Of a DNA stretch of 35,679 nucleotides, positions 4,791-26,800 are shown one piece after another (within the stretch, counting starts at the first letter, position 1; each line of letters opens with the position of its first letter). The position numbers and the translations under genes were made by a program. Source of the stretch: Planctomycetales bacterium (GTDB lineage: Bacteria > Planctomycetota > Planctomycetia > Isosphaerales > Isosphaeraceae); NCBI GenBank assembly GCA_027449865.1, contig DAIDKV010000005.1, forward strand, positions 1 through 35,679, written 5' to 3'. The notes under the pieces are model-generated. The model was not told where the DNA came from. It did no database searches and was given only the letters and a program-made list of their open reading frames with translations.

Positions 4791-6053
4791 TCACGGCGCT
4801 CCTGACGGCGGCGAAACGGATTCCTCGCTTCCCCGCCTGGCGAGGACTCCAAGGCGGGCGACCCCCACGAGCTGCCGGCGGTCAAACAGGACCAGGCCGC
4901 CCGCCAGGACGAGGTAGACCCAGGCGACCGCCGTGAGCACCCGGATCTCCCGCGCTTCGTCGTCGCGGAAGGCGAAACCCAGGCCCAGCTGCATGAGGAA
5001 CAGGCCGAGCAGCGACGCGGCGCCCGCACCGCCCAGTCTCAGCCGCAGGAGGAGGGCCACCCCGAAGAGCGACTGCGCGGCCGTCAGGAAGAATTCCTCG
5101 TGCTGCCGCACGTCGAGCGGCAGGGAGCCCGTGTGTCCCGCGCCGAAGGAGTAGGCGAGCGGCAGCATCCCGACGAGCAGCGTCCACTGGTTGATCTTAT
5201 CGCTGACGAGCGCACCGAGCGCATACGTCGGCATGCCGCGGAGGGTGAAGGGGATGGTAATGACTACCTGCGGGGCCTCGCTGGCCAGGGGGGCCACCCA
5301 CTGGATCAGCAGGAACTGATTCAGGCTGAGCGTCCGGCCCGCGGCGATGAGCGACTCGGCGAAAGGCTCGGCCGAGGCGAGGATGACGGCGGCGGCGTAG
5401 GCGGCCAGCACGCCGATGACGAGGTGCTGTCGCTTGTGGGGCAGACTCAGGATGGCTGCGACCGGGCCGACCGCCGGCTCTTCGTCCTCGTCCCCCTCCT
5501 CTCCGGGGAGGCGGCCGACGCGGCGGAGATAGGCGGCGAAGATCGCGGCGAGGATCGCCCCGTCGACGAGGCCGATCGAGCCCTTGAGCGTTATCACGAA
5601 GGAATACAGGGTGGCGATCGCCAGGAAAGAGATCTCCGCGGCGTTGGACCCGCGGAGGGCGACGCCCCAACCGCGGGCCCGCCAATAGGAGAGCAGGACG
5701 ATGAGCGGCCAGGCGACCCCGATGAGGAGGCGGTTGGCCCCGGTCATGTTGGCGGCGGCGAATTGGACATAGTCCGATTCCGGATAGCGGCCCGCCTCGA
5801 AGGCGTAGTAGATGTCGACCGCGTATTCGGGGAGCACTGTGATCAGCGCGAGCCCGGCAATCGCCAGGCCCTGCGAGATGTGCGTCTCGGCCGCTTCGGC
5901 CGCCCAGGACAGGAGGAAGCCCGCGCCCAGGATCGCCACGCCGAAGAGGATGGCGGAGAGCGGGGCGGGCGCGTGCAGGCCGGCGAGCCGCATGACGAGG
6001 CCCGGGGCCGTGGCTGCCACGGCCGGGATAAGGAAGTGGACGAGTCCTCTCAT
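4791..6053 (-). CDS. CaCA-superfamily cation exchanger (Na+/Ca2+ or H+/Ca2+ antiporter type)
   Basis: 420 residues from the ATG at 6053, which has a strong GAGGAGGA ribosome site seven bases upstream. The open frame extends to 6116, but that start has no such signal. About eleven hydrophobic segments. The two alpha repeats of the family are recognisable: ALITVLPEYAVDI with AANMTGANRLLIG in the first half, and VAPLASEAPQVVITI with ALVSDKINQWTLLVG in the second; the Glu of each PE / SEAP segment is where exchangers bind cation. An acidic cytoplasmic loop (EEGDEDEEP, about residues 203-211) separates the halves, as in regulatory loops of this family. It probably exchanges Ca2+ or another divalent cation for H+ or Na+ at the inner membrane. 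Substrate is uncertain. It sits between a TolC gene and the P1B ATPase. Confidence 0.82.
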   Translation of the reverse strand: MRGLVHFLIPAVAATAPGLVMRLAGLHAPAPLSAILFGVAILGAGFLLSWAAEAAETHISQGLAIAGLALITVLPEYAVDIYYAFEAGRYPESDYVQFAAANMTGANRLLIGVAWPLIVLLSYWRARGWGVALRGSNAAEISFLAIATLYSFVITLKGSIGLVDGAILAAIFAAYLRRVGRLPGEEGDEDEEPAVGPVAAILSLPHKRQHLVIGVLAAYAAAVILASAEPFAESLIAAGRTLSLNQFLLIQWVAPLASEAPQVVITIPFTLRGMPTYALGALVSDKINQWTLLVGMLPLAYSFGAGHTGSLPLDVRQHEEFFLTAAQSLFGVALLLRLRLGGAGAASLLGLFLMQLGLGFAFRDDEAREIRVLTAVAWVYLVLAGGLVLFDRRQLVGVARLGVLARRGSEESVSPPSGAP

Positions 6054-6217
6054 GATATCCTCCTCGGGATGCTTCGCCTCGGCCGATGCTGCGCGGACCT
6101 CCGCTTTTTGGGCCAACTGTAAAGCTATAGGCGTAAGTTTTTAATATGGTTTATCGCTTGGCGCGGCGGGCCGCGTCATTACGCCGAAGGCTTGCCCGGT
6201 ACGGGCGGCGGAGCGGG
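6054..6217. other. Intergenic region with a likely promoter for the cation exchanger
   Basis: This 164-bp gap separates the TolC-type stop from the exchanger start. On the minus strand an AT-rich stretch (about 6118-6150, containing ATTAAAAACTTACG and CCTATAGCTTTAC) is the likely promoter of the exchanger. A small stem GCCCG-GTA-CGGGC at 6194-6206 lies just downstream of the TolC gene but has no T-run, so it is not called a terminator. Confidence 0.3.
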
Positions 6218-7903
6218 TCATGGCAGGACCCGCAGCCCTACGGCCGTGTTCAGCGCCAGCATCGCGCGCCGGTGACGGACCAGGGCGTCGCGGTACAGGC
6301 GGAGGGTATCGTTGTAGTCTCGCTGCGCGTTCAGGTAGGTGACGATGTTCTCCTGCCCCTCCCGGTACAGGCGATAGCGCTCGTCGCGCAGGTGCTTGGA
6401 TCGCGGCAGGATCGTCCGCTCGAACCGCTCGGAGGCGGCGCGGGTGGTCCGGTAGTTCAGGGCCGCGTCCTGGACCTCGGCGGCGACCTGGCGCTCGAGG
6501 CCCGACACCTCGATCTGGGTCTGCATCACGTTCCGCTCGGCGCGGCGGATGTTCCCCTGGTTGCGGTTGAACAGCGGGACGCTGGCGAAGACGCCCGCGC
6601 CCCAGGAGGTCGCGCCCCGGGCCCCCGGGTCGCCGTTGTTGGCGTCGAAGCCGTAGGGCGTGTAGAGCGCGAAGACGTCGGGGAACCGCTCGCGGCGCTG
6701 CACCTCCACATTCGCCGTCGCCGAGCGCACCCCCAGCCGGTAGGCGGCCATGTCGGGCCGGTGGCAGAGGGCGAGCCGGACCAGCTCCTCGTCCGGCGGC
6801 GCGGCCGCGGCCCCGTCGCGGAGCGCCCCGCGGACCTCGATGCGGTCGGCCTGGGCGGGCGGGATGCCGAGCAGGACGGCCAGGGCCCGCTTGGTCTGGG
6901 TCAGCCGCGCCGCGGCCTCCTCCAGCGCGTTGGCGATCGTCTCCTGCTGGATGACCACGGTGTCCAGGTCGGTCTCGGGGACGGCCCCCCGCTTGATCTG
7001 GTCCTGGGTCGTTCGCACCAGGGCCTCGGAGTTGGTCAGGCTCGTCCTCAGGTAGCCGAGCGTCGTGCGGGCGGCCAGCACGTCCACCCAGGCGGCGTGG
7101 AGCAGCTCGACCTCCAGCCGCACGGCGTCCTGGTACTGGGCCTGGAGCACGTTCTTGGACGACTGGGCCAGGCGGACCCGGGCGGGGATCTTGCCGTTGA
7201 CGTCGAACGGCTGGACGATCGAGACCGAGTAGCCGGTCGAGCCGGGCCGCTGCGGCGAATAGCGGCCGTAGGGCACCTTGTCGACGCCCCCCAGCACGAG
7301 CGGGTTGCCGTAGAGGCCGGCGGTCAGGATGTCGGCCTCGGCCTTGGGCAGCTCCTGGAACTTGACGGCCAGCTCCGGGTTGGCCTGGATGAGCCGGGCG
7401 ATGGCCCCCTCCAGGGTCAGGCCGCCCGGCGGGCCCTCGTCCTCGGCGGCGGGCAGGTCAATCGGGCCGTAGAGCGGGGGCTCGACCCGGGCCGCCGCCT
7501 CGGGCAAGGCGGGCGGGAGGATGCCGGGCCGGCGATCGGCGCGGTTGGTCCCCGCGGGCTGCTCCCGGGCCGCCGCGGACAGGATGTCGAGGGCCCGCGG
7601 CTGGGGGAGGCGCTCGCCCAGGCGGGCGGCATCGGCGCCCGGGGTCTTCTCGAACGGCCGCTCCACGCGCCCTTGCAAGGCCCCCAGATGCGTGAAATCC
7701 TGCTCCCGCGCCCGCTCGCCCTTGGCGATGATGCTGCTGATGATGTCGTCGGCGATGACCGACGTGCCCTGGCCCCGGGCCTGGCCTGCCCCGAGGCAGA
7801 GGCCCAGGGCGAGCATCAGGCCCCCCGAAAGTAATCGACGTCCCACGGCGACGGCCTCCCCTCCTGGCGTTGCGGGCTCGCGCATCCGTGCGCCGACGCC
7901 CAT
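6218..7903 (-). CDS. czcC: TolC/CzcC-type outer membrane efflux channel with a long N-terminal extension
   Basis: 561 residues from the ATG at 7903, chosen because AGAGGAAG lies seven bases upstream; the frame is open much further but overlaps the GT9 gene. Signal peptide: RRLLSGGLMLALGLCLG, cleavage near ARG-Q. The first 160 or so residues (DDIISSI, GERARE, ILPPALPE, DEGPPGGLTLE) are unusual for TolC proteins and are matched piece by piece in the paralog at 32958-34589. The TolC repeats follow, with the typical PLFNRNQGNIRRAERN and LNAQRDYNDTLRLYR. It forms the trimeric outer-membrane duct for the CzcB/CzcA pump. It is the last gene of the unit that begins with the CzcI-like protein and is separated from czcA and czcB by two glycosyltransferases and two small genes. 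Confidence 0.92.
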   Translation of the reverse strand: MGVGARMREPATPGGEAVAVGRRLLSGGLMLALGLCLGAGQARGQGTSVIADDIISSIIAKGERAREQDFTHLGALQGRVERPFEKTPGADAARLGERLPQPRALDILSAAAREQPAGTNRADRRPGILPPALPEAAARVEPPLYGPIDLPAAEDEGPPGGLTLEGAIARLIQANPELAVKFQELPKAEADILTAGLYGNPLVLGGVDKVPYGRYSPQRPGSTGYSVSIVQPFDVNGKIPARVRLAQSSKNVLQAQYQDAVRLEVELLHAAWVDVLAARTTLGYLRTSLTNSEALVRTTQDQIKRGAVPETDLDTVVIQQETIANALEEAAARLTQTKRALAVLLGIPPAQADRIEVRGALRDGAAAAPPDEELVRLALCHRPDMAAYRLGVRSATANVEVQRRERFPDVFALYTPYGFDANNGDPGARGATSWGAGVFASVPLFNRNQGNIRRAERNVMQTQIEVSGLERQVAAEVQDAALNYRTTRAASERFERTILPRSKHLRDERYRLYREGQENIVTYLNAQRDYNDTLRLYRDALVRHRRAMLALNTAVGLRVLP

Positions 7904-7917
7904 TGTCCCACTTCCTC

Positions 7918-9069
7918 TTATCGGCCCGCGTCCGAATGGCGGTGCAATGATCCGGGCGACTCGCCCGCGCCGGGAAGCTCCGCCGGTCCCATGGCCGCGG
8001 ATAATGGATGCGGAAAGCCCCCTTCGTCCAACTGCCGCCGGACCGTCGCCCAGACACGTTCGGGGTCGAGTTCGGCCATGCATTCCAGGCGCCCGCACCG
8101 CTTGAGCCGGCTCCCGGCGCACCAGACGCCCGTGCGCACGGCGACCGCGAGCGGGCCGTAGGGCCCGGTGCGGCCAGGTCTCGTGCAGGTGTAGATCCCG
8201 ACGACGCCGGCGCCGGCGGCCGCCGCCAGGTGGAGGGGCCCCGTGTCGTTGGACAGGAACACGTCCGCTTCGGCCGCCACGGCGGCCAGCTGCGGCAAGC
8301 TCGTCGCGCCGGCGAGGTCGCGCACGGGCAGCCCGGCCAGCCGGGCAAGGAGGGCCTCGGCCAGGGGGCGGTCCTCGGGGGCACCGACGATGACCAGGCC
8401 CGCGCCGCGTTCCGCGACGGCCAGCCGCGCGACCTCTGCGAAGTGTTCGGGGGGCCACCGCTTCGTCATCCAGCGGGCCCCGGGATTGAGCACGAGCCGC
8501 GGGGAGGGCACCCCCGCCAGCGCCTCGCACGCCCAACGCCGGTCCTCCCCGGTCATGACGGGGCGGAACCGGGGCCGGGAGACGTCCGCCCCCAGGGCCT
8601 CGGCGACCCGCAGGAGACGGTCGACGGCGTGGACCTCCCCTTCGCCGGTCGGTACCCGGTGCGTGTAGAACTGCGGGGCGCCCTCGCGGGCCTCGGCCAG
8701 CCCGACCCGGACCGGGGCGCCGGTGGCGGCGGCCATGATCCCCGAGCGCAAGAGCCCCTGGAGATCGACGGCGACGTCGAACCGGCGACGGCGGAGGCCC
8801 GCGAGGAACCGGCAGGTCGTTGCGACCCCGCCGGGGCTCAGGCGGAGGCGTGCGCGGTCGAAGGGGATGACCTCGTCGAGCTCCGGGTGGCCGTCGAGCA
8901 GCCCGCGCAGGCCCCGGTTGACCACCCAGGCGATGTGGGCGTGGGGCCAGAGCGCACGCAGGGCCGAGAGGACCGGCAGGGCGTGGACCACGTCGCCCAG
9001 CGAGCTGGGTTTGATGAGGCAGACCCGCTCGGGGTGCAGCCCCCGCAAGTAGATCGGAACTATGGGCAT
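7918..9069 (-). CDS. Glycosyltransferase family 9 (heptosyltransferase-like)
   Basis: 383 residues; ATG at 9069 with GAGG seven bases upstream. The N-terminal IKPSSLGDVVHALPVLSALR is the classical GT9 / LPS heptosyltransferase opening. The second Rossmann half shows LNPGARWMTKRWPPEHFAEV, VIVGAPEDRP and FLSNDTGPLHLAAAAG, the donor-nucleotide binding segments. GT9 enzymes transfer heptose or related sugars onto lipid A-core or other surface glycans at the inner face of the membrane. A non-heptose donor is possible. The stop lies 14 bases before the TolC start and the gene follows the GT39-type gene by 80 bases, so all appear co-transcribed. A glycosyltransferase inside a metal efflux operon is unusual. 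Confidence 0.9.
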   Translation of the reverse strand: MPIVPIYLRGLHPERVCLIKPSSLGDVVHALPVLSALRALWPHAHIAWVVNRGLRGLLDGHPELDEVIPFDRARLRLSPGGVATTCRFLAGLRRRRFDVAVDLQGLLRSGIMAAATGAPVRVGLAEAREGAPQFYTHRVPTGEGEVHAVDRLLRVAEALGADVSRPRFRPVMTGEDRRWACEALAGVPSPRLVLNPGARWMTKRWPPEHFAEVARLAVAERGAGLVIVGAPEDRPLAEALLARLAGLPVRDLAGATSLPQLAAVAAEADVFLSNDTGPLHLAAAAGAGVVGIYTCTRPGRTGPYGPLAVAVRTGVWCAGSRLKRCGRLECMAELDPERVWATVRRQLDEGGFPHPLSAAMGPAELPGAGESPGSLHRHSDAGR

Positions 9070-9149
9070 GGTGTACCTCGGACTCCTACGACGCCGGACA
9101 CCCGAACGCCGGGCCCGCCGCGACGTGCGGCGATGGGCCGGCCCTCGGC

Positions 9150-10739
9150 TCAGCGTCTCGCCGCGTCGTACCGGGTCCTTTCAGCCAAGGGGGAGACCGG
9201 GTGTCTCCCCACGGCCAGCCCGCCGGACGTGGCGCCGTAACCGAACGGGAAGGGCTCGATCTGTTGGAGGCAGCGATAGAGGCGGACCGTCCGCACCGTG
9301 GCCCCGCCGCGGCGGACGGGGAATTCGCCGAGCGGCTCGACCCGGCGGAACCAGCGGGCTGCGTCCACCGGCTCGGTCGTGCAGTCGCTCGCCTCGACGA
9401 AGACGGCGTTACGCCCGACCCAGTCCCCGGGCTCGCTCCAGCAGGAGAAGCCCCGGGAGTCCCGGTGATAGCAGGCGACCGGTATCTTTTCCCGGACGGC
9501 GAAGGCGAGCTGGGCGCTGTGCCGCCAGGAGTCGGCGAAGAGGAATGTGCCCGGTGCGTCGAGCAGGCCGCGACGCGCCAGTTCCCGGGCGACCTGGTCC
9601 CAGCCGTAGAGCTCGACGGTCGGGTCGTCCCGGGGCGCGACGAGGCCGAGGAGCCGGCCCCGGCCGTCCTGGAACAGGCCGAATCGGGCTTGCGCCGCGG
9701 TGAGCCCGGCCAGGACGATCGGCACCGCCGCCACGATCGCGAGGCGGCGCCTCCTTCCCGGATCGGCGGCGAGCATCCGCGACCACTCGCGACCCAGGAG
9801 CGGCATCAGGGCCACGAAGCCGATGAGCGGCCAGTGCGGCATGATGTGCCGGAAGGAGGCGACGCCGAGGAACAGGCCGAGGGCCGGCGCCGCCTGGCAG
9901 GCGAAGAACGCCTCGGGCTCGGTCCAGGCCCGAGGCCCGCCCTTGAGGAGGCGATACGAGATCGCGACCAGGGGGAGCCAGATCCAGGGGAAGAGGAACA
10001 GGGCGCCCGTGCCGACGGCCTCCGCCAGCCGTTCCGGCCGGAGCCTGAAGGCGTTCGCGGCCCGGGAACCCTGGAAGGTGAAGGACGCCCAGTGGTGGGC
10101 GGCGTTCCACTCCACGACGGGCAGGAACAGGAGCGCGCCCACCGCGACCGCCAGATAGGGGCCGGGGGCGCGGAGGCACCGCCGGCTGCGGGGCCAGGCG
10201 AGGAGGTAGAGCGCGAACCCGGCCGGCAGGAGGACCGCATGGTATTTGCTGAGCATCGCCCCGCCCCAGGCGAGGCCCACCGCGAACCAGGCGGAGAGGC
10301 TCCGCGGCCTCTCCGCCGCGGCCGCGAGCCGGTCGAGCGTCAGGAGCCAGAAGAAGAGGAGCGGCCCGTCCGGCGCCGCCGTGGCGCCGACCACGAGCCC
10401 GAAATAGCCGGCGGCGTTCAGGGCCAGGGCGGCGAGGAACCCCGCCCGCGGCCCGAAGAATCGGGCCGCGAGCCGGGCCATGAGCCAGGTCGAGCCGGCG
10501 AACAAGAGGAGGAAGCCGGCCCGGAGCGCCAGGGTCGTGGGCGCCGCGTCCCCGAGCGTCAGGCCGATCTTCCCGACCAGCGCCACCATCGGCGGGTGGT
10601 CGAAATAGCTCCAGTCGGGGTGCCGCGCGTAGAGGTAATAGTAAGCCTCGTTCGTGACCGGCCCCAGGATTGCCGCCCAGGCGAGGCGGAGCAGGCCGGA
10701 AACCGCGATCAATACCCAGAGCGCTTTCCTCGCCGTCAT
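9150..10739 (-). CDS. GT39/ArnT-like membrane glycosyltransferase (lipid-linked sugar donor)
   Basis: 529 residues with about 10-12 hydrophobic segments. The first periplasmic loop has TNEAYYYLYARHPDWSYFDH followed by PPMVAL, the hallmark of PMT/ArnT-type GT-C enzymes; the usual DE pair reads NE here (Asn30, Glu31), with the DHPP turn at about 47-50. The C-terminal third is a soluble domain of about 150 residues with several Cys and an FADSWRHSAQLAF segment. Such enzymes move a sugar from a polyprenyl-phosphate carrier onto lipid A, protein or glycan on the outer face of the membrane. The ATG at 10739 overlaps the stop of the preceding 84-aa gene (ATGA), implying coupled translation. The acceptor is unknown; the position in an efflux operon suggests envelope modification. 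Confidence 0.88.
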   Translation of the reverse strand: MTARKALWVLIAVSGLLRLAWAAILGPVTNEAYYYLYARHPDWSYFDHPPMVALVGKIGLTLGDAAPTTLALRAGFLLLFAGSTWLMARLAARFFGPRAGFLAALALNAAGYFGLVVGATAAPDGPLLFFWLLTLDRLAAAAERPRSLSAWFAVGLAWGGAMLSKYHAVLLPAGFALYLLAWPRSRRCLRAPGPYLAVAVGALLFLPVVEWNAAHHWASFTFQGSRAANAFRLRPERLAEAVGTGALFLFPWIWLPLVAISYRLLKGGPRAWTEPEAFFACQAAPALGLFLGVASFRHIMPHWPLIGFVALMPLLGREWSRMLAADPGRRRRLAIVAAVPIVLAGLTAAQARFGLFQDGRGRLLGLVAPRDDPTVELYGWDQVARELARRGLLDAPGTFLFADSWRHSAQLAFAVREKIPVACYHRDSRGFSCWSEPGDWVGRNAVFVEASDCTTEPVDAARWFRRVEPLGEFPVRRGGATVRTVRLYRCLQQIEPFPFGYGATSGGLAVGRHPVSPLAERTRYDAARR

Positions 10740-11257: not shown

Positions 11258-14200
11258 TCAGACCTTTAGCAGTTCGCCGGGCACGGCTACGGCCCCGTTC
11301 CCCTCGTGGCGGGCGTCCTCGCGGGCCACGTCCTCCCGCTCGGGGCCCTTGCCGAAGAGGAGGTAGAGGACGGGCAGGGCCAGCATGGTGAGGAACGTGT
11401 CGCAGACCATGCCGAAGAAGACGACGGTGGCCAGCGGCCGCTGCACCTCGGCCCCGATGCCGGTCGAGAGCATCATGGGCACGAAGCCGAGGGCCGCGAC
11501 GGTGCCGGTCATGAGCACCGGCCGGAGCCGCGCCAGCCGCGCCTGCTCGATCGCCTCCCGCTTCGGGACCCCGTGCGCCATCCGGTCGCGGATGTAGCTG
11601 ACGAGGATCAGCCCCTCGAGCATCGACGCCCCCGCCAGCGCCACGAACCCCACCCCGGCCGAGATGGTGAACGGCAGGCCGCGAATCCACAGGCCGAGGA
11701 CCCCGCCCACCCGGGCGAAGAGGACGCCGCTGAAGATCATCAGCGCGTCGCGGAAGGAGTGGAACGTGAGGTAGAGCAGGCTCAGGATGAGCGCCAGCGC
11801 CAGCGGCACGACGATCAGGAGCCGCCGCTCGGCGCGCTTCAGGTGCTCGAACTGCCCGCCCCACTCGATGTGATAGCCGGCGTCCAGCTTCACCCCGGCC
11901 TTGACCCGGGCCTGGGCCTCCTCGACGAACGAGCCCAGGTCCCGGCCGCGGACGTTGGACTGGACGACGATCCGCCGCTGGCCCCATTCGCGCTGGATGG
12001 TCGACGGCCCGGTGACCTCCTCCAGGCGGGCGAGCTGCGTGAGCGGCAGCCGCTGGCCGGAGGCGGTCGCGACCAGAACCTGGCCCAGGGCGGCGGGATT
12101 CTGGCGATAGTCCTCGGAGAGCCTGACCACGAGCGGGAAGCGCATCCCGGGCTCGAGGACCTCGCCGACGGGGAGGGCGCCCGCGGCCTTCACGGCGTCG
12201 AGCACCTGCCGGGCGGAGACGCCGTAGCGGGAGAGGGCCTGCCAGTCGACCGCCACGCGGAGCACCGGCTGGCCGGTGATCTGCTCGAGGCTCACATCCG
12301 CGGCGCCGGGGACCTGGAGCATGATCCGCAGGATGTCCTCGCCCTTCTCCTTGAGGACGGCCAGGTCGTCGCCGTAGAGCATGATCCCGAGATCGGCGCG
12401 GATGCCCGAGACCATCTCGTTGATCCGCATCTCGATCGGCTGGGTGTAGGCCGCCCGCATCCCCGGCAGCGTCTCGGTGACCTCGGCCATCTCCTTGACC
12501 AGCTCGTCCTGGCTCTTCGCCCGCGTCCAGCCGCCCTCGGGCTTCTGCGTGACGTAGCGCCACCAGGCGGCCGGGCTGCTCGCAATCGCCGGCCGCGCGA
12601 TCGGGTAGCGGCCCTCGCGGGGCTTGAGCGTGATGAAGATGTCGCCGACCTCCAGGCCCATCGGGTCGGTCGCGACCTCCGGCGTCCCGACCCGGCTCCA
12701 GATGTTCTCGATCTCGTCGGGGAACTCGCGCTTGAGCATCCGCTCGATCCGCGTTCCGTAGCGCAGCGACTCCTCCAGGCTCACCCCGGCGAGCCGCACC
12801 GTGTTGATCACGATCGTCCCCTCGTTCAGCCGGGGGACGAACTCCGAGCCGAGCGACAGGCCGAGGATGGTGGTGGCCACCGTGATGGCGCCGACGAAGA
12901 CCAGGGTCGGCCAGGGGAAGCGCAAGCCCAGCCGCAGGATCGGCTGGAAAAGCAGGTGCGCCAGCCGGTCGACGAGCGTCTCCTTCTCGGAGATCTTGCG
13001 GGGCAGCGCGAAGGAGGCCAAAACCGGCATGAGCGTCAGCGACATCACCATCGAGCCCAGCAGCGCGAAGATGACCGTCAGGGCCATCGGCCGGAAGAGC
13101 TTGCCCTCGACCCCCTCGAGCGTGAGGATCGGCAGGTAGACGATCATGATGATGAGCTCGCCGAACATCGTCGGCTTCCTCACCTCGACGGCGGCGTCGC
13201 GCACCACATCGAGCTTCTTCCGGGCCGTGCCGTCATGCGCGATGTGCCGGACGCAGTTCTCGACCATGACGACCGAGCTGTCGACCACCAGTCCGAAGTC
13301 GATGGCGCCCAGGCTCATGAGGCTGCCGGCGATGCCGATCCGCTCCATCATCGTGACGGCGAACAGCATGGAGAGCGGGATGGCGGAGGCCACGATCAGC
13401 CCGGCGCGGAAGTTCCCGAGGAAGGCGAACAGCACGGCGATGACGAGGACCGCGCCCTCGAAGAGGTTCTTCTCGACCGTGTGCAGCACCTGGTCCACGA
13501 GATGGGTCCGCTCGTAGACTTCCGCGATCTCCACCCCCTTGGGTAGGGCGGAGCGGACGTCCTGCATGGCCTTGTCGAGGCCCATGGTGACCTCGCGGCT
13601 GTTCTCGCCCATCCGCATGAAGGCCAGCCCCAGCACCGCCTCGCCCTTACCCTCGGCGGTCACCCCGCCGCGGCGGATCACGTGGCCGACAGCGACCTCG
13701 GCCACGTCGCGGACGCGGACCGGCACCCCGTTATGCGCGGCGATGACGACGCCGGCGATCGCGTCCGTCGTGGCGACGCGGCCCACCCCCTGGACCAGGC
13801 TCGCCTCGCCCGCCTCGGTGACGTAGCCGCCGCCGACATTGGCGTTGTTCTCGCGTAACGCCCCGGTTACGTCGTCGAGCGTGAGCTTGTACTTGGCGAG
13901 CTTCACCGGGTCGACCCGGGCCTCGAACTGCTTGGCCGTCCCCCCCCAGGCGTTGATCTCGGCCACGCCCGGCACGCGCCGGAGTCGCGGGCGGATCACC
14001 CAGTCCTGGAATGTCCTGAGCTCGGTCAGCCCGACCTTAGGATCCGAACTCGTAAGCAGGTAGTGGTAGATCTCGCCCAGTCCGGTCGCCACCGGGCCCA
14101 TCTCGGGCTTGGCGATCCCCTCCGGGAGCTGCGCCTCACCGAGCCGCTCGTTGACCTGCTGGCGGGCGAAGTAGATGTCGGTGCCGTCCTCGAACGTGGC

Positions 14201-14482
14201 GACGACCTGCGAGAGCCCGAATTTCGAGATCGAGCGGACCTGCTCGAGGCCCTTGAGGCCACCCAGCGCCATCTCCACCGGGAAGGTGATCTGCCGCTCG
14301 ACCTCTTCGGGCCCGAGTTCCGGGGCCACCGTGTTGATCTGGATCTGGACCGGGGTCGTGTCCGGAAAGGCGTCGAGCGGCAGGCGCCCGGCCGCCCGGA
14401 CCCCGAGCGCGACGAGGATTCCCGCCAGGAGCAGGATGACGAAGCGGTTCTTCAGGCTGAAGCCGATGAGCGCGTTGAGCAT
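11258..14482 (-). CDS. czcA: HME-family RND metal efflux pump, CzcA type (operon 1)
   Basis: 1074 residues from the ATG at 14482, which has a GGAGGG ribosome site; the frame is open 15 codons further but without one. Typical RND layout: TM1, a large periplasmic domain, TM2-TM7, a second periplasmic domain, TM8-TM12. Within TM4 the proton-relay acids of CzcA are conserved: Asp395, Asp401 and Glu408 in IDFGLVVDSSVVMVENC, with the same spacing as D402/D408/E415 of Cupriavidus CzcA. The second pore-domain segment PIEMRINEMVSGIRADLG matches CzcA/NccA rather than CusA. This supports proton-driven export of divalent cations (Co, Zn, Cd or Ni), not Cu(I). The start follows the czcB stop by 22 bases. 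The exact metal cannot be read from sequence. Confidence 0.95.
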   Translation of the reverse strand: MLNALIGFSLKNRFVILLLAGILVALGVRAAGRLPLDAFPDTTPVQIQINTVAPELGPEEVERQITFPVEMALGGLKGLEQVRSISKFGLSQVVATFEDGTDIYFARQQVNERLGEAQLPEGIAKPEMGPVATGLGEIYHYLLTSSDPKVGLTELRTFQDWVIRPRLRRVPGVAEINAWGGTAKQFEARVDPVKLAKYKLTLDDVTGALRENNANVGGGYVTEAGEASLVQGVGRVATTDAIAGVVIAAHNGVPVRVRDVAEVAVGHVIRRGGVTAEGKGEAVLGLAFMRMGENSREVTMGLDKAMQDVRSALPKGVEIAEVYERTHLVDQVLHTVEKNLFEGAVLVIAVLFAFLGNFRAGLIVASAIPLSMLFAVTMMERIGIAGSLMSLGAIDFGLVVDSSVVMVENCVRHIAHDGTARKKLDVVRDAAVEVRKPTMFGELIIMIVYLPILTLEGVEGKLFRPMALTVIFALLGSMVMSLTLMPVLASFALPRKISEKETLVDRLAHLLFQPILRLGLRFPWPTLVFVGAITVATTILGLSLGSEFVPRLNEGTIVINTVRLAGVSLEESLRYGTRIERMLKREFPDEIENIWSRVGTPEVATDPMGLEVGDIFITLKPREGRYPIARPAIASSPAAWWRYVTQKPEGGWTRAKSQDELVKEMAEVTETLPGMRAAYTQPIEMRINEMVSGIRADLGIMLYGDDLAVLKEKGEDILRIMLQVPGAADVSLEQITGQPVLRVAVDWQALSRYGVSARQVLDAVKAAGALPVGEVLEPGMRFPLVVRLSEDYRQNPAALGQVLVATASGQRLPLTQLARLEEVTGPSTIQREWGQRRIVVQSNVRGRDLGSFVEEAQARVKAGVKLDAGYHIEWGGQFEHLKRAERRLLIVVPLALALILSLLYLTFHSFRDALMIFSGVLFARVGGVLGLWIRGLPFTISAGVGFVALAGASMLEGLILVSYIRDRMAHGVPKREAIEQARLARLRPVLMTGTVAALGFVPMMLSTGIGAEVQRPLATVVFFGMVCDTFLTMLALPVLYLLFGKGPEREDVAREDARHEGNGAVAVPGELLKV

Positions 14483-14504: not shown

Positions 14505-15968
14505 TCAGTCGTCGGTGCAGCCGGCACCGAGGGCGTCCTTCATGGTCTCGGTCTTCAGGAAGAAGGCCCCGGTGGTGACGACCCTCTGACCGGCCGAGAG
14601 CCCCGCGGCCACCTCGACCCGGTCGCCCCGGGCGGAGGGGCGGACCCGGACCCGCTGGGGGTGATACGTCCCGCCGGCCAGGGCCACGAACACCAGGTGG
14701 TCCTGGTAGCGGCGCTGGACCGCGCCCCGCGGGACGACCACCGCCTCGTGCTCGTCGCCGAGCTTGACCTCGGCCCGGCCGAACTGGTGGGCGCGCAGGC
14801 GCCCGTCCGGGTTGGCCAGCTCCGCCCGGACGCGGGTGGTGCGGGTCTGCGGGTCCACTTCCGTCCCGACCCAGGTGACCTTGCCCTCGAAGGCGGGAAC
14901 CTTCGCGTCCGGGTTCGCGCCCGAGATGGCGAAGGTCACCGCCTGGCCGGCCTTCACCGTGTCGATGTCGGCCTCGTAGACGTCGATCCAGAGCCACATG
15001 GAGCGGGTGTCGGCGAGGGCGTAGATCTGGGTGGTGGGCTCGACCGCCTCGCCCGGCACGGCCTGGAACGCCACGACGGTGCCGCCGATCGGTGCGGTGA
15101 TCTCCAGCAGGCTCGAAGTGTCCTGGGACTTGGCGAGCCGGGCCAGGGCCGCGTCGTCGAAGCGCAGGTTCTTGAGCCGCTGCGCCGCCTCGCGCGAGGT
15201 GGCCTGCGCCTCGGCCAGCGCCGTTCGCGACTCGAGCTCCTGCCGGGCGGCCACCGAGCCGGTGGCGGCGAGGCCCTTGGTCCGGTCATACGTCGCCTGG
15301 GCGAGCTCGACCGTGGCCCGAGCGGAGAGATAGCGGGCCTTCGCGGCGCCGACCTCCGCCGAATCGACCACCGCGAGTACCTCGCCCTTGCGGACCGCGG
15401 CGCCGAGGTCGGCCTTCACTTCGCTCAGGAATCCGGGGACGCGCGGCCGGATCTCCGCGTAGCGCCGCGCGTCGTAGGCCGCCTCGGCGTTGGCCCGGAG
15501 GGTGGGGGCCCGCTTCTCCGTCGTGGCGGGGGCGGTCTCGATCCCGATGTCCTCGGCCATCGCGGCCGAGGCGAGCTTCACGTCGGGCACCTCGCCCGGC
15601 GCCGCCGAGGCGGCGGGGTTGGTGCCGCACTTCTCGCAGAAATGCTTCGGCAGGCCGTGGCCCTTCGGGCACATCTCGATGTCGTATTTCTCCTTGAGCT
15701 CCGGGTGGCAGAGCGTGCAGATGTCCTCGGGGATGTTGCCGTGCTCCTTGCAGAGCGTCAGGCTCGATTTCAGCTCCTTGTGGCACAGCGTGCAGAACTT
15801 CTCCGGGACCCCGTGCTCCTTGCACTGAAGGGCGGTCTCGGACGTCCCGCCCCCGGCCCGCGGGCGGGCCCAGGCGGGCATGAGGTCGGGGCGCAGGACG
15901 GCGACGCCGAGGCCCGCGGCGGCGGCGACGCCGGCCGCGATCAAGAGGCCAGAAACGACGCGTTTCAT
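14505..15968 (-). CDS. czcB: CzcB-type periplasmic adaptor with an N-terminal Cys/His-repeat domain (operon 1)
   Basis: 487 residues from the ATG at 15968 (AGGAA eight bases upstream). A signal anchor at about 4-26 is followed at 49-114 by three imperfect repeats with the pattern C-x2/3-H-G-x-P-x-x-x-C-x-x-C: Cys49/His52/Cys59/Cys62, Cys73/His76/Cys84/Cys87 and Cys100/His104/Cys111/Cys114. The first two end in CTLCH. Then come the usual lipoyl halves, a helical hairpin of moderate length (about 255-340), beta-barrel and membrane-proximal domains ending near GAFFLKTETMKDALG. It links CzcA to the outer-membrane channel. The repeats probably capture metal for delivery to the pump; CTLCH also fits a c-type haem site, so haem binding cannot be excluded. 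It follows the CzcI-like gene by 182 bases. Confidence 0.93.
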   Translation of the reverse strand: MKRVVSGLLIAAGVAAAAGLGVAVLRPDLMPAWARPRAGGGTSETALQCKEHGVPEKFCTLCHKELKSSLTLCKEHGNIPEDICTLCHPELKEKYDIEMCPKGHGLPKHFCEKCGTNPAASAAPGEVPDVKLASAAMAEDIGIETAPATTEKRAPTLRANAEAAYDARRYAEIRPRVPGFLSEVKADLGAAVRKGEVLAVVDSAEVGAAKARYLSARATVELAQATYDRTKGLAATGSVAARQELESRTALAEAQATSREAAQRLKNLRFDDAALARLAKSQDTSSLLEITAPIGGTVVAFQAVPGEAVEPTTQIYALADTRSMWLWIDVYEADIDTVKAGQAVTFAISGANPDAKVPAFEGKVTWVGTEVDPQTRTTRVRAELANPDGRLRAHQFGRAEVKLGDEHEAVVVPRGAVQRRYQDHLVFVALAGGTYHPQRVRVRPSARGDRVEVAAGLSAGQRVVTTGAFFLKTETMKDALGAGCTDD

Positions 15969-16150
15969 GGGTTCGTTCCTTGATGCAGGGATGTGGAGCC
16001 GCAATGCCGCCCGGGGCGCCAAACGGCGATGGTCGCCGAGGCGCAAAGGCATGCATGCGAGCGGATTACGGAGGATTTGATTGGCCCCGGGACGGGGCGA
16101 GGGACGTGCACAGCCCCTTCAGGAGGAAGGGTTGCGAGCGGCGGGGCGGA

Positions 16151-16501
16151 TCAGCAGCGGAAGTTCTGGAGGAGCGCGCGCAGTGTCCCGGCATCGCCGG
16201 GTGACGCTGGGGAGGGGAGGGCGCTACTCGACTGGCCCTCGGCTTGCGGGGGCAAGCCCAGGGGATCGAGTGCCCAGAGCTCGGGGAGCGGCTGGCCTAC
16301 CGCATCGGGGACGGGCAGCGGTACCTGATCAGCCTGGACCGCCCCGGCGGTGATGCAGGACACCCCGTCGTCCGGGCAGGGCACCGGGACGTTGCGTCCA
16401 TCCTCATTCAACTCGGCGCAGCATCCCGACTCGACCGCCCGGCAGAGGATCGGGCAGGCAGAGAGGATGCCGACCAGGAAGAAGACGAGGATCGATCGCA
16501 A
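16151..16501 (-). CDS. Small exported Cys-rich protein, CzcI-like leader of operon 1
   Basis: The reading frame is open from a GTG at 16531, but a TTG at 16501 preceded by GAGG at six bases gives 116 residues that align from residue 1 with the protein at 34935-35288: MRSILVFFLVGILSACPILC versus MRTLISTLLACLILACPFLC. A hydrophobic signal segment ends in LSAC, a possible lipobox, with Cys16 and Cys20. Further Cys are at 27, 28, 42 and 49, in the pattern PVPCPDD...SCI-x-x-GAVQ. The C terminus is LRALLQNFRC. The middle is Pro-rich. It heads the czcBA operon. By position, size, export signal and Cys content it resembles CzcI of Cupriavidus, but residue similarity to CzcI is not evident, so a new family is likely. 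Confidence 0.72.
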   Translation of the reverse strand: MRSILVFFLVGILSACPILCRAVESGCCAELNEDGRNVPVPCPDDGVSCITAGAVQADQVPLPVPDAVGQPLPELWALDPLGLPPQAEGQSSSALPSPASPGDAGTLRALLQNFRC

Positions 16502-16713
16502 CGCTAACCTCGCACAGAAAGGGCGGATCACCCCCTCATTCTACGCCGGGCGGGGAAATCCAACTAGCTCAAGTCCGAATTCTCCGGACATTCCTCCTTC
16601 TCATCGGATAAGTCCGGGCGCATCCTGAAACGCGAATCGGAAAAGCTGCCCTCGAGCATACCCCGCCCTTGCGCCTGTCTCGGGCTACTCCCGGAAGCGC
16701 TGCACGCAGGGCG
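16502..16713. other. Intergenic region upstream of the CzcI-like gene
   Basis: About 210 bases without a gene. It contains GTCCG-AATTCTC-CGGAC (about 16575-16591), a 5-bp dyad with a 7-base centre, and a second ATAAGTCCGGG copy some 20 bases on, which could be repressor half-sites. No convincing -35/-10 pair was found. Confidence 0.2.
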
Positions 16714-16908
16714 TCACACGTTGCCTGAATCATTCGCCTGTCGCGCCGGTGCGAGCGTCATGACGTAGCCGCAACAACGCGGCCATCCGGATCTAATAAA
16801 TCCAACGATGTCTGACACGGAGACGATCGTCGCCTTGTTGCATATCGTGCATCGGACAATGCCGCCTGAGTTTGCGGGATCATCGGCCGGTACGCTGGGC
16901 TGGTTCAT
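16714..16908 (-). CDS. Small cytoplasmic protein with CxxC and CC metal-site candidates (64 aa)
   Basis: ATG at 16908 preceded by AGGAGG with six bases of spacing, a strong start. The 64 residues hold VRCTICNKAT (Cys20, Cys23) and, some 20 residues later, GWPRCCGYVMTL (Cys45, Cys46), a layout like a zinc ribbon with two Cys knuckles. There is no signal peptide. It lies between efflux operons 1 and 2, on the same strand, 190 bases after the lipoprotein stop and 212 bases before the CzcI-like start. It may bind zinc or a related metal. No named family was recognised. Confidence 0.6.
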   Translation of the reverse strand: MNQPSVPADDPANSGGIVRCTICNKATIVSVSDIVGFIRSGWPRCCGYVMTLAPARQANDSGNV

Positions 16909-17100
16909 GTCTGCCTCCTTTCCAGTTCAAAGAAGTACTGTTGCGGCGTGTAAATGTGCATGCCCGCCCGCGCGCTGACCGTAAGCCGAACGCGATGACC
17001 GGCCTGCCTAGACCGGCTCAAGGGTCCGTGGGCGTCCGGCTCGTACTCTGTCAGCGGGCGGGGGTAGAGTCCTTGTGACCCCGAAACTTCACCCCGTCGG

Positions 17101-17373: not shown

Positions 17374-17666
17374 CGGGTGGCCTCCCATTTCTGTCTATTC
17401 GGCGCGTTCTCGGCTGCCATCTGACGGCAGATGGCCTTGAGGCGGCGGGTTTGCGCGGTGTTCTGGTCCAACTTGGCCCCGTGCGCCGTCCGGGTCTCCT
17501 TCGACTCGTTACCGAGATGCTCCGCCTCGTTCAGGCATGCCACTCGCAGGATTTCCTGACGCTGCTCCGGCGACTTGCTGGCGAGTTTCTCCTCGAGCGT
17601 CTGGGGCGGCTGCGGCGCGCAGGCCGTTAATGCCGCGGCGGCGGCGATGGGCAAGAATCGTTTCAT
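17370..17666 (-). CDS. Small lipoprotein following czcA (operon 2)
   Basis: 98 residues; ATG at 17666 overlaps the czcA stop (ATGA) and its own stop overlaps the next start in the same way. Signal peptide MKRFLPIAAAAALTAC with Cys16 as the lipobox Cys. Mature protein is helical and charged with two further Cys (RVACLNEAE, KAICRQMA), matching its downstream paralog. The tight overlaps tie its amount to that of CzcA. No family recognised; a periplasmic or outer-membrane accessory of the pump is the simplest guess. Confidence 0.8.
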   Translation of the reverse strand: MKRFLPIAAAAALTACAPQPPQTLEEKLASKSPEQRQEILRVACLNEAEHLGNESKETRTAHGAKLDQNTAQTRRLKAICRQMAAENAPNRQKWEATR

Positions 17667-20600
17667 AGTTCCTCCTTGTTGGTGACTTCGTCTGCTAGGG
17701 AAAAAAAGTGGTACAGCGCGGGGATGATGAGCAGCGTCAGGATGGTCGCCGCGATCAGCCCCCCGATCACCACGATGGCGAGCGGCTTCTGCACCTCGGC
17801 TCCCGCGCCGTGGGAGAGCGCCATGGGCACGTAGCCAAGCGAAGGGACGACCGTCGCCATAATCATGGCCCGCAAGCGGTTGAGCGTCCCCTGCCGCACG
17901 GCCTGGTCCGCCGGCACTCCCTCCTGGACGAGCTGGTTGATGCTGTTGACCATGACCAGGCCGTTCAGCACCGAGATCCCAGACAGCGCGATAAAGCCGA
18001 CGCCCGCCGAGATCGAGAAGGGCATGCCGATCACGAGAAGGGTGAACACGCCGCCCACGACCGCCAGCGGGATGCCGCTGAAGACGAGCAGCGCCTGCCG
18101 GATCGAATCGAGCGCCGCGAAGAGCAGCAGGAAGATGAAGAAAAAGCAGGCGGGCACCACCACCATGAGCCGGTCGCTCGCCTCCTTCAGGTTTTTGAAC
18201 TGGCCGCCCCATTCCAGCGAGTAGCCTGCGGGCAGCTTGACCTTGGCGTCCGTCGCCGCCTGGGCCTCGGCCACGAAGGAGCCGATGTCGCGCCCGCGCA
18301 CGTTGGCCTGCACCACCATGCGCCGCTTGCCGTTCTCGCGGCTGATCTGGTTCGGCCCCTCGGTGAGCTGCAGGCTCGCCACCTCTTTGAGGGGCACGTA
18401 GCGGGGGCGACTGTGCGGCAAGGCCGGGTTCTCCTCCACGCCCATGTCTTCGGGCAACAGGATGGGAAGGTTTTCCATCACGGACAAGTCCCCGCGCAAC
18501 CCGACCGGTAGGCGGACGAGGATGTCGAAGCGGCGGTCGCCCTGAAACACCAGCCCGGACTCGCGGCCCCCGACCGCGATTGCCACCACGTCGAGGACGT
18601 CGTTGACATTCAGGCCGTAGCGGGCGATGGCTGGGCGGTCGAGGCGGATCTCGAGGAACGGCAGGCCGCTGGTCTGCTCGACCTTCACGTCGGCGGAGCC
18701 GGGGATGTTCCGAAGCACCTGCATGATCGCCCCGGCGGTCTTGCCCATGGCGGCGAAATCGTCCCCGTAGACCTTCACCGCCACGTCGCCGCGTACGCCG
18801 GCGATGAGCTCGTTGAAACGCATCTGGATCGGCTGCGTGAACTCGTAATTACTGCCCGGCACTTTGTGAACTTCCTCCTCCATCTGCTTGATCAGCTCGG
18901 ATTTCGGCAATTTCGCATCGGGCCATTCCTCGTGCGGTTTGAGGATGATGAAGGTGTCGCTGGCATTGGCCGGCATAGGATCCGCAGCCATCTCCGCCGT
19001 GCCCGTCTTACTGAAGACGAAGGCGACCTGCTTGAATTGGCTGACCACCTTCTCCACCTCGAACTGGATCGCCTGCGACTGGGTGAGCGACGTGCTGGGG
19101 ATGCGCAACGCCTGCATCGCGATGTCCTTCTCGTCCAGGGTCGGGATGAATTCGCGGCCCAGGAATCCGAAGGCGGCGATCGCCAGCACTACCAGACCGG
19201 CGGCGATGCCGCTGGTGAAGAGCGGCCGCGCCAACGCGCGCTCCAGCCAGGGCAGATAGAGCTGCTTGGACTTGTCCATCAGCGCCCCTTCGCCCTCCTT
19301 GACCCGGCCCGTGACGAAGATCGCGATCATCGCCGGCACGAAGGTGATCGAGAGCACGAAGGCCGCGACCAGGGCCAGGATGACGGTGATCGCCATCGGC
19401 TCGAACATCTTGCCCTCCACGCCCGTGAAGGTGAGCATCGGCACGTAGACCATGATGATGATGGCCTGGCCGAAGACGATCGGCTTGACGATCTCCGTGC
19501 CGGCCGCCATGACCTCGTGCAGGCGCTCCTTGAGCGAGAGCACCCGGCCGTAATGCGCCTGCGCGTGCGAAAGGCGGTGCAGGCAGTTCTCCGTGATAAT
19601 GATCGCCCCGTCGACGATCAGCCCAAAATCAAGGGCGCCGAGGCTCATGAGGTTGCCGCTGATGCCGAACTTGATCATGCCGATGAATGTCATGAGCATC
19701 GAGATCGGGATCACCAGCGCCGTGATCATAGCGGCGCGGATGTTCCCGAGCACCAGGAAGAGGACGGCGATGACGAGCAGTGCACCCTCGGTCAAGTTCT
19801 TCTCGACCGTGCCGATGGTGCGGTTGACCAGCGTGGTGCGGTTCAATACCGTCTTGGCCTCGATGTCGGGCGGCAGCGATTTGACGATCTCCTTGAGCTT
19901 CGCGTCCACCGACTCCGACACGGTGCGGCTGTTGGCGCCGATCAGCATCAGCGCCGTGCCCACCACGACCTCCTGGCCATTTTCTGAGGCCGAGCCGGTG
20001 CGGAGCTCCTTGCCGATGCCGACCTCGGCGATGTCGCGCATATAGACAGGCACGCCGCCCCGCGTGGAAACGACGATGTCGCCGATCGCCTCCGGGGTGC
20101 CGATGCGGCCGTCGGCGCGCACCACGTAGGACTCGCCGGATTTCTCGATGTAGCCCGCGCCGAGGCTCTTGTTGTTATTCTCCAGGGCCTCGACGACATC
20201 TTTAAAGCTCAGGCCCAGCGCCACCAATGTCTGGGGATAGGGCTGCACGTGGTATTCTCGCTTATAGCCCCCGATCGCGTCGACACCGGCCACCCCCGCC
20301 ACGCCTTTGAGCTGCGGACGGATGATCCAGTCCTGCACGGTGCGCAGGTAGGAAGCGAGCTCCACATCACCGTGCAGACGCTCGCCCTCCGGCGTGAGAT
20401 AGCTCCCGTCCGGCTGCCAGCCGGGCTCCCCGTCCCGGGCTTCGGCGCCTTCCCCCTGCGGGTGCCCGTAATGCACCGTCCACATGTAGATCTCGCCCAG
20501 GCCCGTCGAGATAGCGCCCATGCGCGGCTCGGCGCCGGCGGGCAGGCTCTCCTTTGCCTCCGCCAGGCGCTCGTTCACCTGGGCGCGGGCGAAGTAGATA

Positions 20601-20905
20601 TCGACGTCGTCGCGGAAGACGGCGGTCACCTGGCTGAAGCCATTGCGGGAGATCGAGCGGGTGTTCTCCAGGCCCGGGATGCCGGCGAGCGCCGTCTCCA
20701 CCGGGAAGGTCACCTGCTTCTCGATCTCCGTCGGGGAGAGAGCGGGCGCGGTGGTGTTGATCTGCACCTGCACGTTGGTGATGTCCGGGACGGCGTCGAT
20801 CGGCAGGCTCTTGAGCGAATAGAGCCCGAACGCCGCCACCGCCGCCGTGAGCAGCGCCACCAGGTAGCGATGATGGAGAGAGAATCCGAGAGTGCGCTGA
20901 ATCAT
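17663..20905 (-). CDS. czcA: HME-family RND metal efflux pump, CzcA type (operon 2)
   Basis: 1080 residues, full length. TM4 holds Asp426, Asp432 and Glu439 in LDFGLIVDGAIIITENC, identical in spacing to the essential acids of Cupriavidus CzcA. A periplasmic insertion at about 149-180 (rich in Gly, Glu and Pro) is typical of CzcA/CnrA. The segment YEFTQPIQMRFNELIAGVRG is the CzcA/NccA-type metal path, not the Met-rich CusA type. Predicted to expel Co, Zn, Cd or Ni with protons. The start follows the czcB stop by five bases. Compared with the pumps at 11258 and 27642 this copy looks classically proteobacterial, and its base composition appears less GC-rich, which fits separate acquisition. Confidence 0.95.
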   Translation of the reverse strand: MIQRTLGFSLHHRYLVALLTAAVAAFGLYSLKSLPIDAVPDITNVQVQINTTAPALSPTEIEKQVTFPVETALAGIPGLENTRSISRNGFSQVTAVFRDDVDIYFARAQVNERLAEAKESLPAGAEPRMGAISTGLGEIYMWTVHYGHPQGEGAEARDGEPGWQPDGSYLTPEGERLHGDVELASYLRTVQDWIIRPQLKGVAGVAGVDAIGGYKREYHVQPYPQTLVALGLSFKDVVEALENNNKSLGAGYIEKSGESYVVRADGRIGTPEAIGDIVVSTRGGVPVYMRDIAEVGIGKELRTGSASENGQEVVVGTALMLIGANSRTVSESVDAKLKEIVKSLPPDIEAKTVLNRTTLVNRTIGTVEKNLTEGALLVIAVLFLVLGNIRAAMITALVIPISMLMTFIGMIKFGISGNLMSLGALDFGLIVDGAIIITENCLHRLSHAQAHYGRVLSLKERLHEVMAAGTEIVKPIVFGQAIIIMVYVPMLTFTGVEGKMFEPMAITVILALVAAFVLSITFVPAMIAIFVTGRVKEGEGALMDKSKQLYLPWLERALARPLFTSGIAAGLVVLAIAAFGFLGREFIPTLDEKDIAMQALRIPSTSLTQSQAIQFEVEKVVSQFKQVAFVFSKTGTAEMAADPMPANASDTFIILKPHEEWPDAKLPKSELIKQMEEEVHKVPGSNYEFTQPIQMRFNELIAGVRGDVAVKVYGDDFAAMGKTAGAIMQVLRNIPGSADVKVEQTSGLPFLEIRLDRPAIARYGLNVNDVLDVVAIAVGGRESGLVFQGDRRFDILVRLPVGLRGDLSVMENLPILLPEDMGVEENPALPHSRPRYVPLKEVASLQLTEGPNQISRENGKRRMVVQANVRGRDIGSFVAEAQAATDAKVKLPAGYSLEWGGQFKNLKEASDRLMVVVPACFFFIFLLLFAALDSIRQALLVFSGIPLAVVGGVFTLLVIGMPFSISAGVGFIALSGISVLNGLVMVNSINQLVQEGVPADQAVRQGTLNRLRAMIMATVVPSLGYVPMALSHGAGAEVQKPLAIVVIGGLIAATILTLLIIPALYHFFSLADEVTNKEEL

Positions 20906-20910
20906 GCCGG

Positions 20911-21879
20911 CTATTCCCCTTCCTCGGCGCCGGCCTTGCCGATATCCGCCTTGATGATGAAGCTGTTGTCGCTGACATAGGTCTCGCCCGGTTTCAAACC
21001 TTCACGCACCTCCGTCCACTGGCCGTCGCTCGTCCCGGTCTTGATCGGCCTCATGGCAAAGCGGTCGCCGTCCTGCACGAATACGACCGTCTTGCCTTCC
21101 ATAGTCTGGATGGCGGAGGTCCTGACCGCGACCGGGACCTGCTTTTCGCGGATAACCACGTCGCCGCGCACCGTCATGCCGGCGCGCCACATGCCGTCCG
21201 GGTTAGGGAGGGTGACCCGGGCGATGACTGTCTGGCTCGAGGATTCCGCCACGGGGAGCACCAGTGAGATCGTCGCTGCGCCGACATGCCCGCCCTCGAA
21301 GCTCGTGACGCGGACCTTCTGGCCGCCCGCGATCTTGTCGATATCGCGGGGGAAGACGTGAAATTCCGCCCAGACATCGGAGATGTCTGCGATGGTAAAG
21401 AGCGGCGACTCGCCCGCGACGTCGCCTATATTAGTGTTGCGTGCCAGTACGACGCCCGTGATCGGGGATTTGACCGCGTAGGGCTGCAGGCTATCGTTGC
21501 TCTCGACCATGGCGAGCACGTCGCCGACATCCACGAGTTCGCCCTGGCCCTTCCTCACCTCGCGCACGATGCCGGGAAAACGCGCCTTAACCAGTGCCAG
21601 CGTGTTCTGGTTTAAGGTGATACGGCCGGAGAGGGTCACGGTCTCGGAAACGGTGCCGCTTCCGGCCGGCTCGACCTTGATGCCAGCGGCCTGGGCGGCC
21701 TCCTGGCCGATGACGGTGCTATCGGGCTGCGATTTGGTCTCGGCTTCGTCCTTGTCCTGCGAAGTAGCGACCGTCTGCGCATGATGCTGAGCGATGAGCC
21801 AGTAACCAGCCCCTCCCAGCGCCAGGATGGCCAAGGTGATATATTTCCTATTAACCGAATCTTTCGACCTTCTAACCAT
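20911..21879 (-). CDS. czcB: CzcB-type periplasmic adaptor, short form without helical hairpin (operon 2)
   Basis: 322 residues; ATG at 21879 with AGAGGA upstream, overlapping the czcC stop by eight bases. An N-terminal membrane anchor (about 14-30) is followed by the lipoyl half VGDVLAMVESNDSLQPYAVK, which runs directly into SPITGVVLARNTNIGDVAG, so the helical hairpin found in most adaptors is missing. WAEFHVFPRDIDKI and the beta-barrel follow. Hairpin-less CzcB proteins are known from proteobacterial czc systems. It bridges CzcA and CzcC in the periplasm. This structure contrasts with the moderate hairpin of the operon 1 adaptor and the long hairpin of the operon 3 adaptor. Confidence 0.93.
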   Translation of the reverse strand: MVRRSKDSVNRKYITLAILALGGAGYWLIAQHHAQTVATSQDKDEAETKSQPDSTVIGQEAAQAAGIKVEPAGSGTVSETVTLSGRITLNQNTLALVKARFPGIVREVRKGQGELVDVGDVLAMVESNDSLQPYAVKSPITGVVLARNTNIGDVAGESPLFTIADISDVWAEFHVFPRDIDKIAGGQKVRVTSFEGGHVGAATISLVLPVAESSSQTVIARVTLPNPDGMWRAGMTVRGDVVIREKQVPVAVRTSAIQTMEGKTVVFVQDGDRFAMRPIKTGTSDGQWTEVREGLKPGETYVSDNSFIIKADIGKAGAEEGE

Positions 21880-23254: not shown

Positions 23255-23347
23255 GGAGTCCTTCCGTGAATGATTGGGGATGCAAAACATCGACGCTCGC
23301 AAGCACGTCGCGACGAGCATTGCAGGGCGGTCTGGGTAACCTAGTCG

Positions 23348-26786: not shown

Positions 26787-26800
26787 AGTTGGGGTGAGCT

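Follow-up and report, generated by a model that had tools for sequence, protein, structure and literature searches.

How might a periplasmic adaptor take part in handing metal to its efflux pump? RND metal efflux is textbook material, and the steps of periplasmic delivery have been worked out closely mainly for the route CusF/CusB/CusA, which is Met-based. The window, by which we mean the whole analysed stretch of 35,679 nucleotides from a Planctomycetales bacterium, raises this question through an adaptor gene whose product carries three Cys/His repeats ahead of its lipoyl domain and a further Cys just before its C-terminus.

The gene starts at the ATG at 15968, with a further in-frame ATG at 16052, and its product is recognized as an RND periplasmic adaptor both by PF16576 (161 bits, cut-off 30) and by the adaptor family model TIGR01730 (158.7 bits, cut-off 94.9), with ZneB (3lnn), which it matches in fold, as the best solved relative. 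The score against the CzcB/NccB subfamily model TIGR00999 was 169.3 bits, below the cut-off of 319.3, and judged by its sequence the adaptor is kin of this subfamily and not filed in it. The body of the adaptor is well predicted in the full-length AlphaFold2 model. The protein contains exactly ten Cys residues: the repeats account for nine, and C484 in the C-terminal tail is the only other one. Many related adaptors (L033, L040, L062, L182 and others) also conserve a Cys pair, WEGCC(N/H/Y), in the membrane-proximal half, which is absent from the window's family.

Table 1. Positions of the adaptor, its parts, its operon partners and the CxxU forms of a small secreted protein (window coordinates unless a related locus is named)
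Feature	Position	Strand	Basis
RND heavy-metal efflux periplasmic adaptor (CzcB/CusB type), Cys form, 487 aa	14505..15968	(-)	translation, PF16576, TIGR01730, ZneB 3lnn
N-terminal membrane anchor helix, residues 2-25	15894..15965	(-)	AlphaFold2 helix 2-25, hydrophobic sequence
CHCC repeat array, residues 47-118	15615..15830	(-)	translation, relatives, array-only model
Repeat 1, CKEHGVPEKFCTLC, C49/H52/C59/C62	15783..15824	(-)	translation, relatives
Repeat 2, CKEHGNIPEDICTLC, C73/H76/C84/C87	15708..15752	(-)	translation, relatives
Repeat 3, CPKGHGLPKHFCEKC, C100/H104/C111/C114	15627..15671	(-)	translation, relatives
C-terminal tail GAGCTDD, residues 481-487; C484 codon TGC 14517-14519	14508..14528	(-)	alignments, TGA relatives
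Cognate RND pump (CzcA type), ATG at 14482 likely, motif DFGLVVDSSVVMVEN	11258..14482	(-)	pump tree, motif
Outer-membrane factor (CzcC/TolC type), start approximate	6218..7900	(-)	directly after pump in L009
Na+/Ca2+-exchanger-like cation antiporter, start approximate, family by eye	4791..6060	(-)	beside pump in L009 too
P1B-2 type (ZntA-like) P-type ATPase, CPC motif, ADMGASL in last helix	2289..4733	(-)	kept in L009
Small secreted protein, CxxU forms	L167:4858, L171:4975, L174:4223	+	
Small secreted protein, CxxU form	L169, position 4799 of reverse complement	minus	

The preliminary description had reported three C-H-C-C units between the membrane anchor and the lipoyl domain, and the translation confirms all twelve ligands (Table 1) as well as two occurrences of the motif CTLCH in the protein. 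The regularity ascribed to the units holds for the order of the ligands but not for their exact spacing, repeat 2 being one residue longer (HGNIP) and repeat 3 having the form C-x3-H. The repeats are far above chance and under purifying selection relative to the nearest relatives: the motif C-x2-3-H-x5-7-C-x2-C occurs 3 times, against a mean of 0.00045 and a maximum of 1 when the protein was shuffled 20,000 times, and a comparison of the array codons with two close relatives, both of which retain all twelve ligands, gave 11-13 synonymous versus 4 non-synonymous changes. When the repeat was searched as a known domain, as had been advised, no curated Pfam or NCBIfam model scored above its cut-off on the array of the window protein. 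The array of a six-repeat relative does pass the cut-off of the Pfam B-box zinc model (28.8 versus 27 bits), which is a resemblance only. Structure prediction, likewise proposed beforehand, returned a compact domain for the array alone (pLDDT 87.1, pTM 0.75), with a confidence of only 61-69 for the same residues in the full-length AlphaFold2 model. A fold search with the array model against solved structures returned nothing below E 3.6 and nothing with Z of 2 or more, which does not show a new fold, because short arrays are hard for Foldseek.

Beyond the window, a repeat match was found in 43 of 294 genomes sampled across the phylum and in 16 of 45 from the window's own family, and thirteen of the related loci with repeats come from named genomes, nearly all of them Planctomycetota and one from Verrucomicrobiota. 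The number of repeats per adaptor varies from 1 to 9 across relatives. The non-ligand positions of 166 repeats, chosen by the C-H-C-C ligand pattern itself, follow the consensus W-C-x-E-H-G-V-P-E-S-x-C-x-x-C-[HN]-P-E-L. In many relatives the pump gene is also adjoined by a small lipoprotein made of the CHCC unit, usually in two copies; the genome of the window has the one array only, and no second array or repeat lipoprotein was found in it. Of the earlier suggestion that the twelve ligands form metal sites feeding the pump, the conservation of the repeats, their range of copy number and the recurrence as a lipoprotein bear out a metal-ligand-like module, while binding and feeding would be inferred from it.

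The second conserved element, absent from the preliminary description along with its TGA forms in relatives, is the C-terminal tail, which in the AlphaFold2 model is disordered (pLDDT under 50 for residues 481-487) and whose GAGC is invariant in alignments A3 and A4. In the per-locus table, GAGC or a near form ends all 26 repeat-bearing adaptor reading frames, save for L062, which ends in GAG-TGA, the TGA replacing the tail Cys codon; the adaptor of L122 ends in LGAACCE. The repeat-less adaptors of the same table lack the GAGC tail, among them that of L002, which is 55% identical and serves a pump 74% identical. The exception is L021, with a tail and no repeats, where the adjoining lipoprotein carries two repeats. 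A broader regex count, which recovered only 20 adaptors and should be read beside the per-locus table, found repeats and tail together in 14 and neither in 6. A tail on a repeat-less adaptor was also seen in a few selenocysteine (Sec) forms (L166) and in Verrucomicrobiota, so that the tail is wider than the array and the two are no obligate partners. The tail often holds a single Cys or Sec with no partner, as in GAGCTDD or GAGUADDE.

The window adaptor has no in-frame TGA, its C484 codon being TGC, and is not itself a selenoprotein. Among its relatives, a search of 392 genomes with a profile built from the last 106 residues recovered 16 tails whose frame runs through a single TGA; no tail ran through TAA or TAG. 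In 16 of 16 the TGA stands at the tail Cys codon, and the frame then ends after a short stretch at a true stop (UCPEE, UADDE or UAD from the TGA onward); these post-TGA tails vary synonymously. All 16 also have a SECIS-like hairpin with its loop 20-26 nt 3' of the TGA. The mean stem of 6.06 bp exceeds both that of 44 Cys relatives (4.07 bp; Mann-Whitney p 7e-7) and that of shuffled sequences (mean 4.29, maximum 5.38), and stems of at least 4 with a GGU loop occur in 7 of the 16 TGA forms versus none of the 44 Cys relatives (p 3e-5). Several loops read GGUC, like that of the E. coli fdhF element; the loops are not uniform, GU being missing in L172 and L175. SelA scored over its cut-off in 14 of the 18 genomes with a TGA form and, among the control genomes, in E. 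coli only. The four TGA-form genomes with no SelA above the cut-off have assemblies that are 80%, 59%, 61% and 77% complete, and most of the Sec cases come from genomes assembled from metagenomes. SelB and strong tRNA-Sec matches were found in several genomes, including that of the window; the Rfam search for tRNA-Sec gives weak matches in every genome, and matches were accepted only above about 65 bits. In L033 and L040 it is the last Cys of the third repeat that is encoded by TGA (CxxU), the frame running on into the adaptor, and the hairpin that these two share is similar to those of the tail forms. The Sec tails are placed on the pump tree such that at least three separate Sec/Cys changes are needed. 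With an in-frame TGA at a Cys position, a SECIS-like hairpin and the Sec machinery found together in these relatives, the end cysteine of the adaptor is apparently encoded as selenocysteine in at least 16 related genomes.

In one class of loci the Sec adaptor gene is immediately preceded, in the same operon, by a gene for a small secreted protein that matches no Pfam or NCBIfam family and has CxxU in 4 of 6 loci (Table 1) and CxxC in L173 and L176. Three of the four TGA forms have 7-bp hairpins with altered stem sequences. The Cys form of L176 likewise has a 7-bp stem, so the hairpin is here supportive, not decisive, and we regard the protein as a candidate for a second selenoprotein family.

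The pump that adjoins the window adaptor has the TM4 acidic spacing D-x5-D-x6-E (DFGLVVDSSVVMVEN) expected of an HME-RND partner, and we take these residues to be the equivalents of CzcA D402/D408/E415. The pumps of tail-bearing adaptors form a clade (SH-aLRT 99). No pump Cys specific to the tail-bearing systems was found, only a near-invariant His (H159, alignment numbering). Pump, outer-membrane factor, cation-exchanger-like gene and P1B-2 type ATPase have a common order in the window and in L009; two glycosyltransferase-like genes (window 7918-10739, minus strand) separate the pump from the outer-membrane factor in the window, the two being adjacent in L009. The P-type ATPases near such operons are mostly of P1B-2 type (ADMGASL) or P1B-4 type (SPC, HEGST), classes which were assigned from established motif knowledge and not by profile search, and these neighbours indicate divalent metals. 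A single copper-type ATPase, set apart from the operon, is found in L018.

Taken as a whole, these features make it reasonably probable that array and tail constitute a thiol/selenol relay that handles divalent metals of the soft or borderline kind, in which the array and the tail Cys or Sec feed the CzcA-type pump. The adaptor would serve a pump for Zn/Cd, possibly Pb/Hg/Co, and its three C-H-C-C units would capture periplasmic metal delivered by the P1B-type ATPase; in many relatives the lipoprotein made of the same unit might also hand metal to the array. From there the metal could pass to C484 on the flexible tail, at the membrane-proximal side beside the pump entry, and from this Cys or Sec to the pump for export. 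Such a sequence of capture by array or lipoprotein, mobile tail and pump, modelled by analogy on CusF-CusB-CusA and ZneB, is most likely the way in which the system would work. Repeats, tail, their joint occurrence, operon partners, TGA at the Cys codon, hairpins and Sec machinery are observed; the translation of TGA as Sec, for which the evidence is computational, the metal binding, the direction of transfer and the identity of the metal are what we infer. It counts against the relay that Sec serves in redox chemistry more often than in metal binding, that the window copy is itself the Cys form in a genome with no second array or repeat lipoprotein, that array and tail do not always occur together, that the array scores modestly in the full-length model, and that the TGA forms stem mostly from metagenome assemblies, with hairpin loops that differ and four genomes short of a SelA above cut-off. 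For the wider proposal, that planctomycete RND adaptors are an unlisted selenoprotein family whose Sec, in the tail and sometimes in the array, would be a metal ligand feeding the pump, joined in the relay by the second secreted selenoprotein, we see the chances as evenly balanced.

One could object that TGA in the 16 relatives is a plain stop and that the adaptor has merely lost its last residues, the more so as a genuine stop would also be TGA in some cases. This we regard as quite improbable, given that the codon read through is always a single TGA, that in all 16 a brief tail, itself conserved, runs on to another stop, that the hairpins lie at a fixed distance and are stronger than in Cys relatives and shuffles, that SelA is present in most of the genomes, and that the tree calls for repeated Sec/Cys changes. 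We give practically no credence to the idea, raised in the preliminary description, that the two CTLCH motifs bind c-type haem. The CxxCH pattern does fit the consensus, but His follows CxxC in only 67 of the 166 repeats, with Asn in 52 and R, G, S, D, Q, A, K or T in the others, so that the match is incidental and no haem motif; each CxxC lies inside a C-H-C-C unit that is conserved with or without the trailing His, and neither the adaptor nor its repeat-carrying relatives match a cytochrome family above cut-off. The conserved CxxCH of a c-type cytochrome is not found here, and the haem reading was rejected on this conservation pattern.

The remaining alternatives concern what the Cys and Sec residues do. 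The CHCC repeats could be structural zinc knuckles that serve only to dock or rigidify the N-terminal part of the adaptor and pass on no substrate metal, as short-spaced C-H-C-C is typical of structural Zn sites, the six-repeat array passes the B-box cut-off and the predicted array fold is compact. A range of one to nine copies between relatives would be unusual for a fixed structural part, the unit also stands alone as a lipoprotein in the same operon, and a repeat Cys codon is TGA in two genomes, where Sec would be unusual for a purely structural Zn site; we think knuckles of this kind unlikely. It is also feasible that the tail Cys/Sec and CxxC/U form a thiol or selenol redox device, such as a disulfide switch or a reductase tail, and involve no metal ligands. 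Known selenoproteins are mostly redox-active (PMC13188914), there is a likeness to redox motifs in the CxxU of array and partner protein and in the adjacent U-C of GAGUCPEE tails, and the tail is flexible in the model. We find such a device harder still to favour, in view of the His and three Cys in fixed order in each repeat, which is a metal-site pattern, the location of the adaptor in a metal-efflux operon, the many tails in which the Cys or Sec has no partner, and the profile searches, which reported no thioredoxin-like domain for adaptor or partner.

Returning to the relay, adaptor-based presentation or transfer of metal has a precedent in ZneB and CusB/CusF (PMC4446572). The CzcB/ZneB/CusB adaptors of HME-RND pumps have the same fold, membrane anchor and operon place beside a CzcA-type pump, whereas their N-domain is Met-rich or missing where the CHCC array stands here, and the conserved C-terminal Cys/Sec tail sets the present family apart. 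As with CusF and the CusF-like domain of SilB, the module occurs as a fusion to the adaptor and also on its own as a distinct protein of the system, although CusF is a beta-barrel and the present module consists of a short CHCC repeat carried by a lipoprotein. The view that known CzcB/CusB N-terminal sites are Met- or His-based, from which the preliminary description had set out, is incomplete in that it overlooks the HMBD domain (PF19335, CPMHP...CPxCGM). This domain has the same C-H-C-C ligand order at the adaptor N-terminus and is present in other adaptors of the window's genome, but it has a longer H-to-C spacing and a different consensus. An assignment of the array to PF19335 was rejected, with no profile match up to E 10 and an hhalign probability of 2.5%.

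Sec in metal transport, suggested as a metal ligand, is known from the E1-E2 cation ATPase (UxxC), a MerP-like protein (C/SxxU), the SO_0444 Cu/Zn efflux transporter (UxC) and SaoB/SaoC, whose folds and motifs differ from the GAGU tail and the CHCU repeat and none of which is an RND adaptor; nor is an RND adaptor entered among the 119 prokaryotic selenoprotein families inventoried in 2026 (PMC13188914). A literature search, with subscription papers outside its reach, found no published work on Sec in RND adaptors, and a thiol or selenol relay seems new for RND metal pumps and not previously reported. The adaptor family points to a thiol-based route that combines a variable number of capture units with a C-terminal handover residue. 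The natural exchange of Cys and Sec at the tail implies that this residue is functionally critical, and it would offer a direct test of selenolate as a metal ligand outside enzymes. The family probably goes unseen in databases, since annotation pipelines that take TGA for a stop would end these genes at GAG.

Several other genes of the window, all on the minus strand, may be of interest in their own right. A P1B-4 type ATPase at 24501-26972 looks frameshifted, its SPC motif being encoded in a different frame (ORF 25046-25735). Each of two small secreted proteins rich in Cys, with RALLQNFR[C/F] ends (16151-16531 and 34935-35288), lies upstream of a metal-efflux operon, and at about 16690-16910 a small ORF that has no annotation (MNQPSVPADD...CTICNK...CCGYV) contains both a CxxC and a CC pair. 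Finally, 17663-23320 holds a third, divergent RND metal operon with pump, short adaptor and outer-membrane factor, the pump of which shares 71% identity with a pump of L009 and falls into one group with it in the pump tree.
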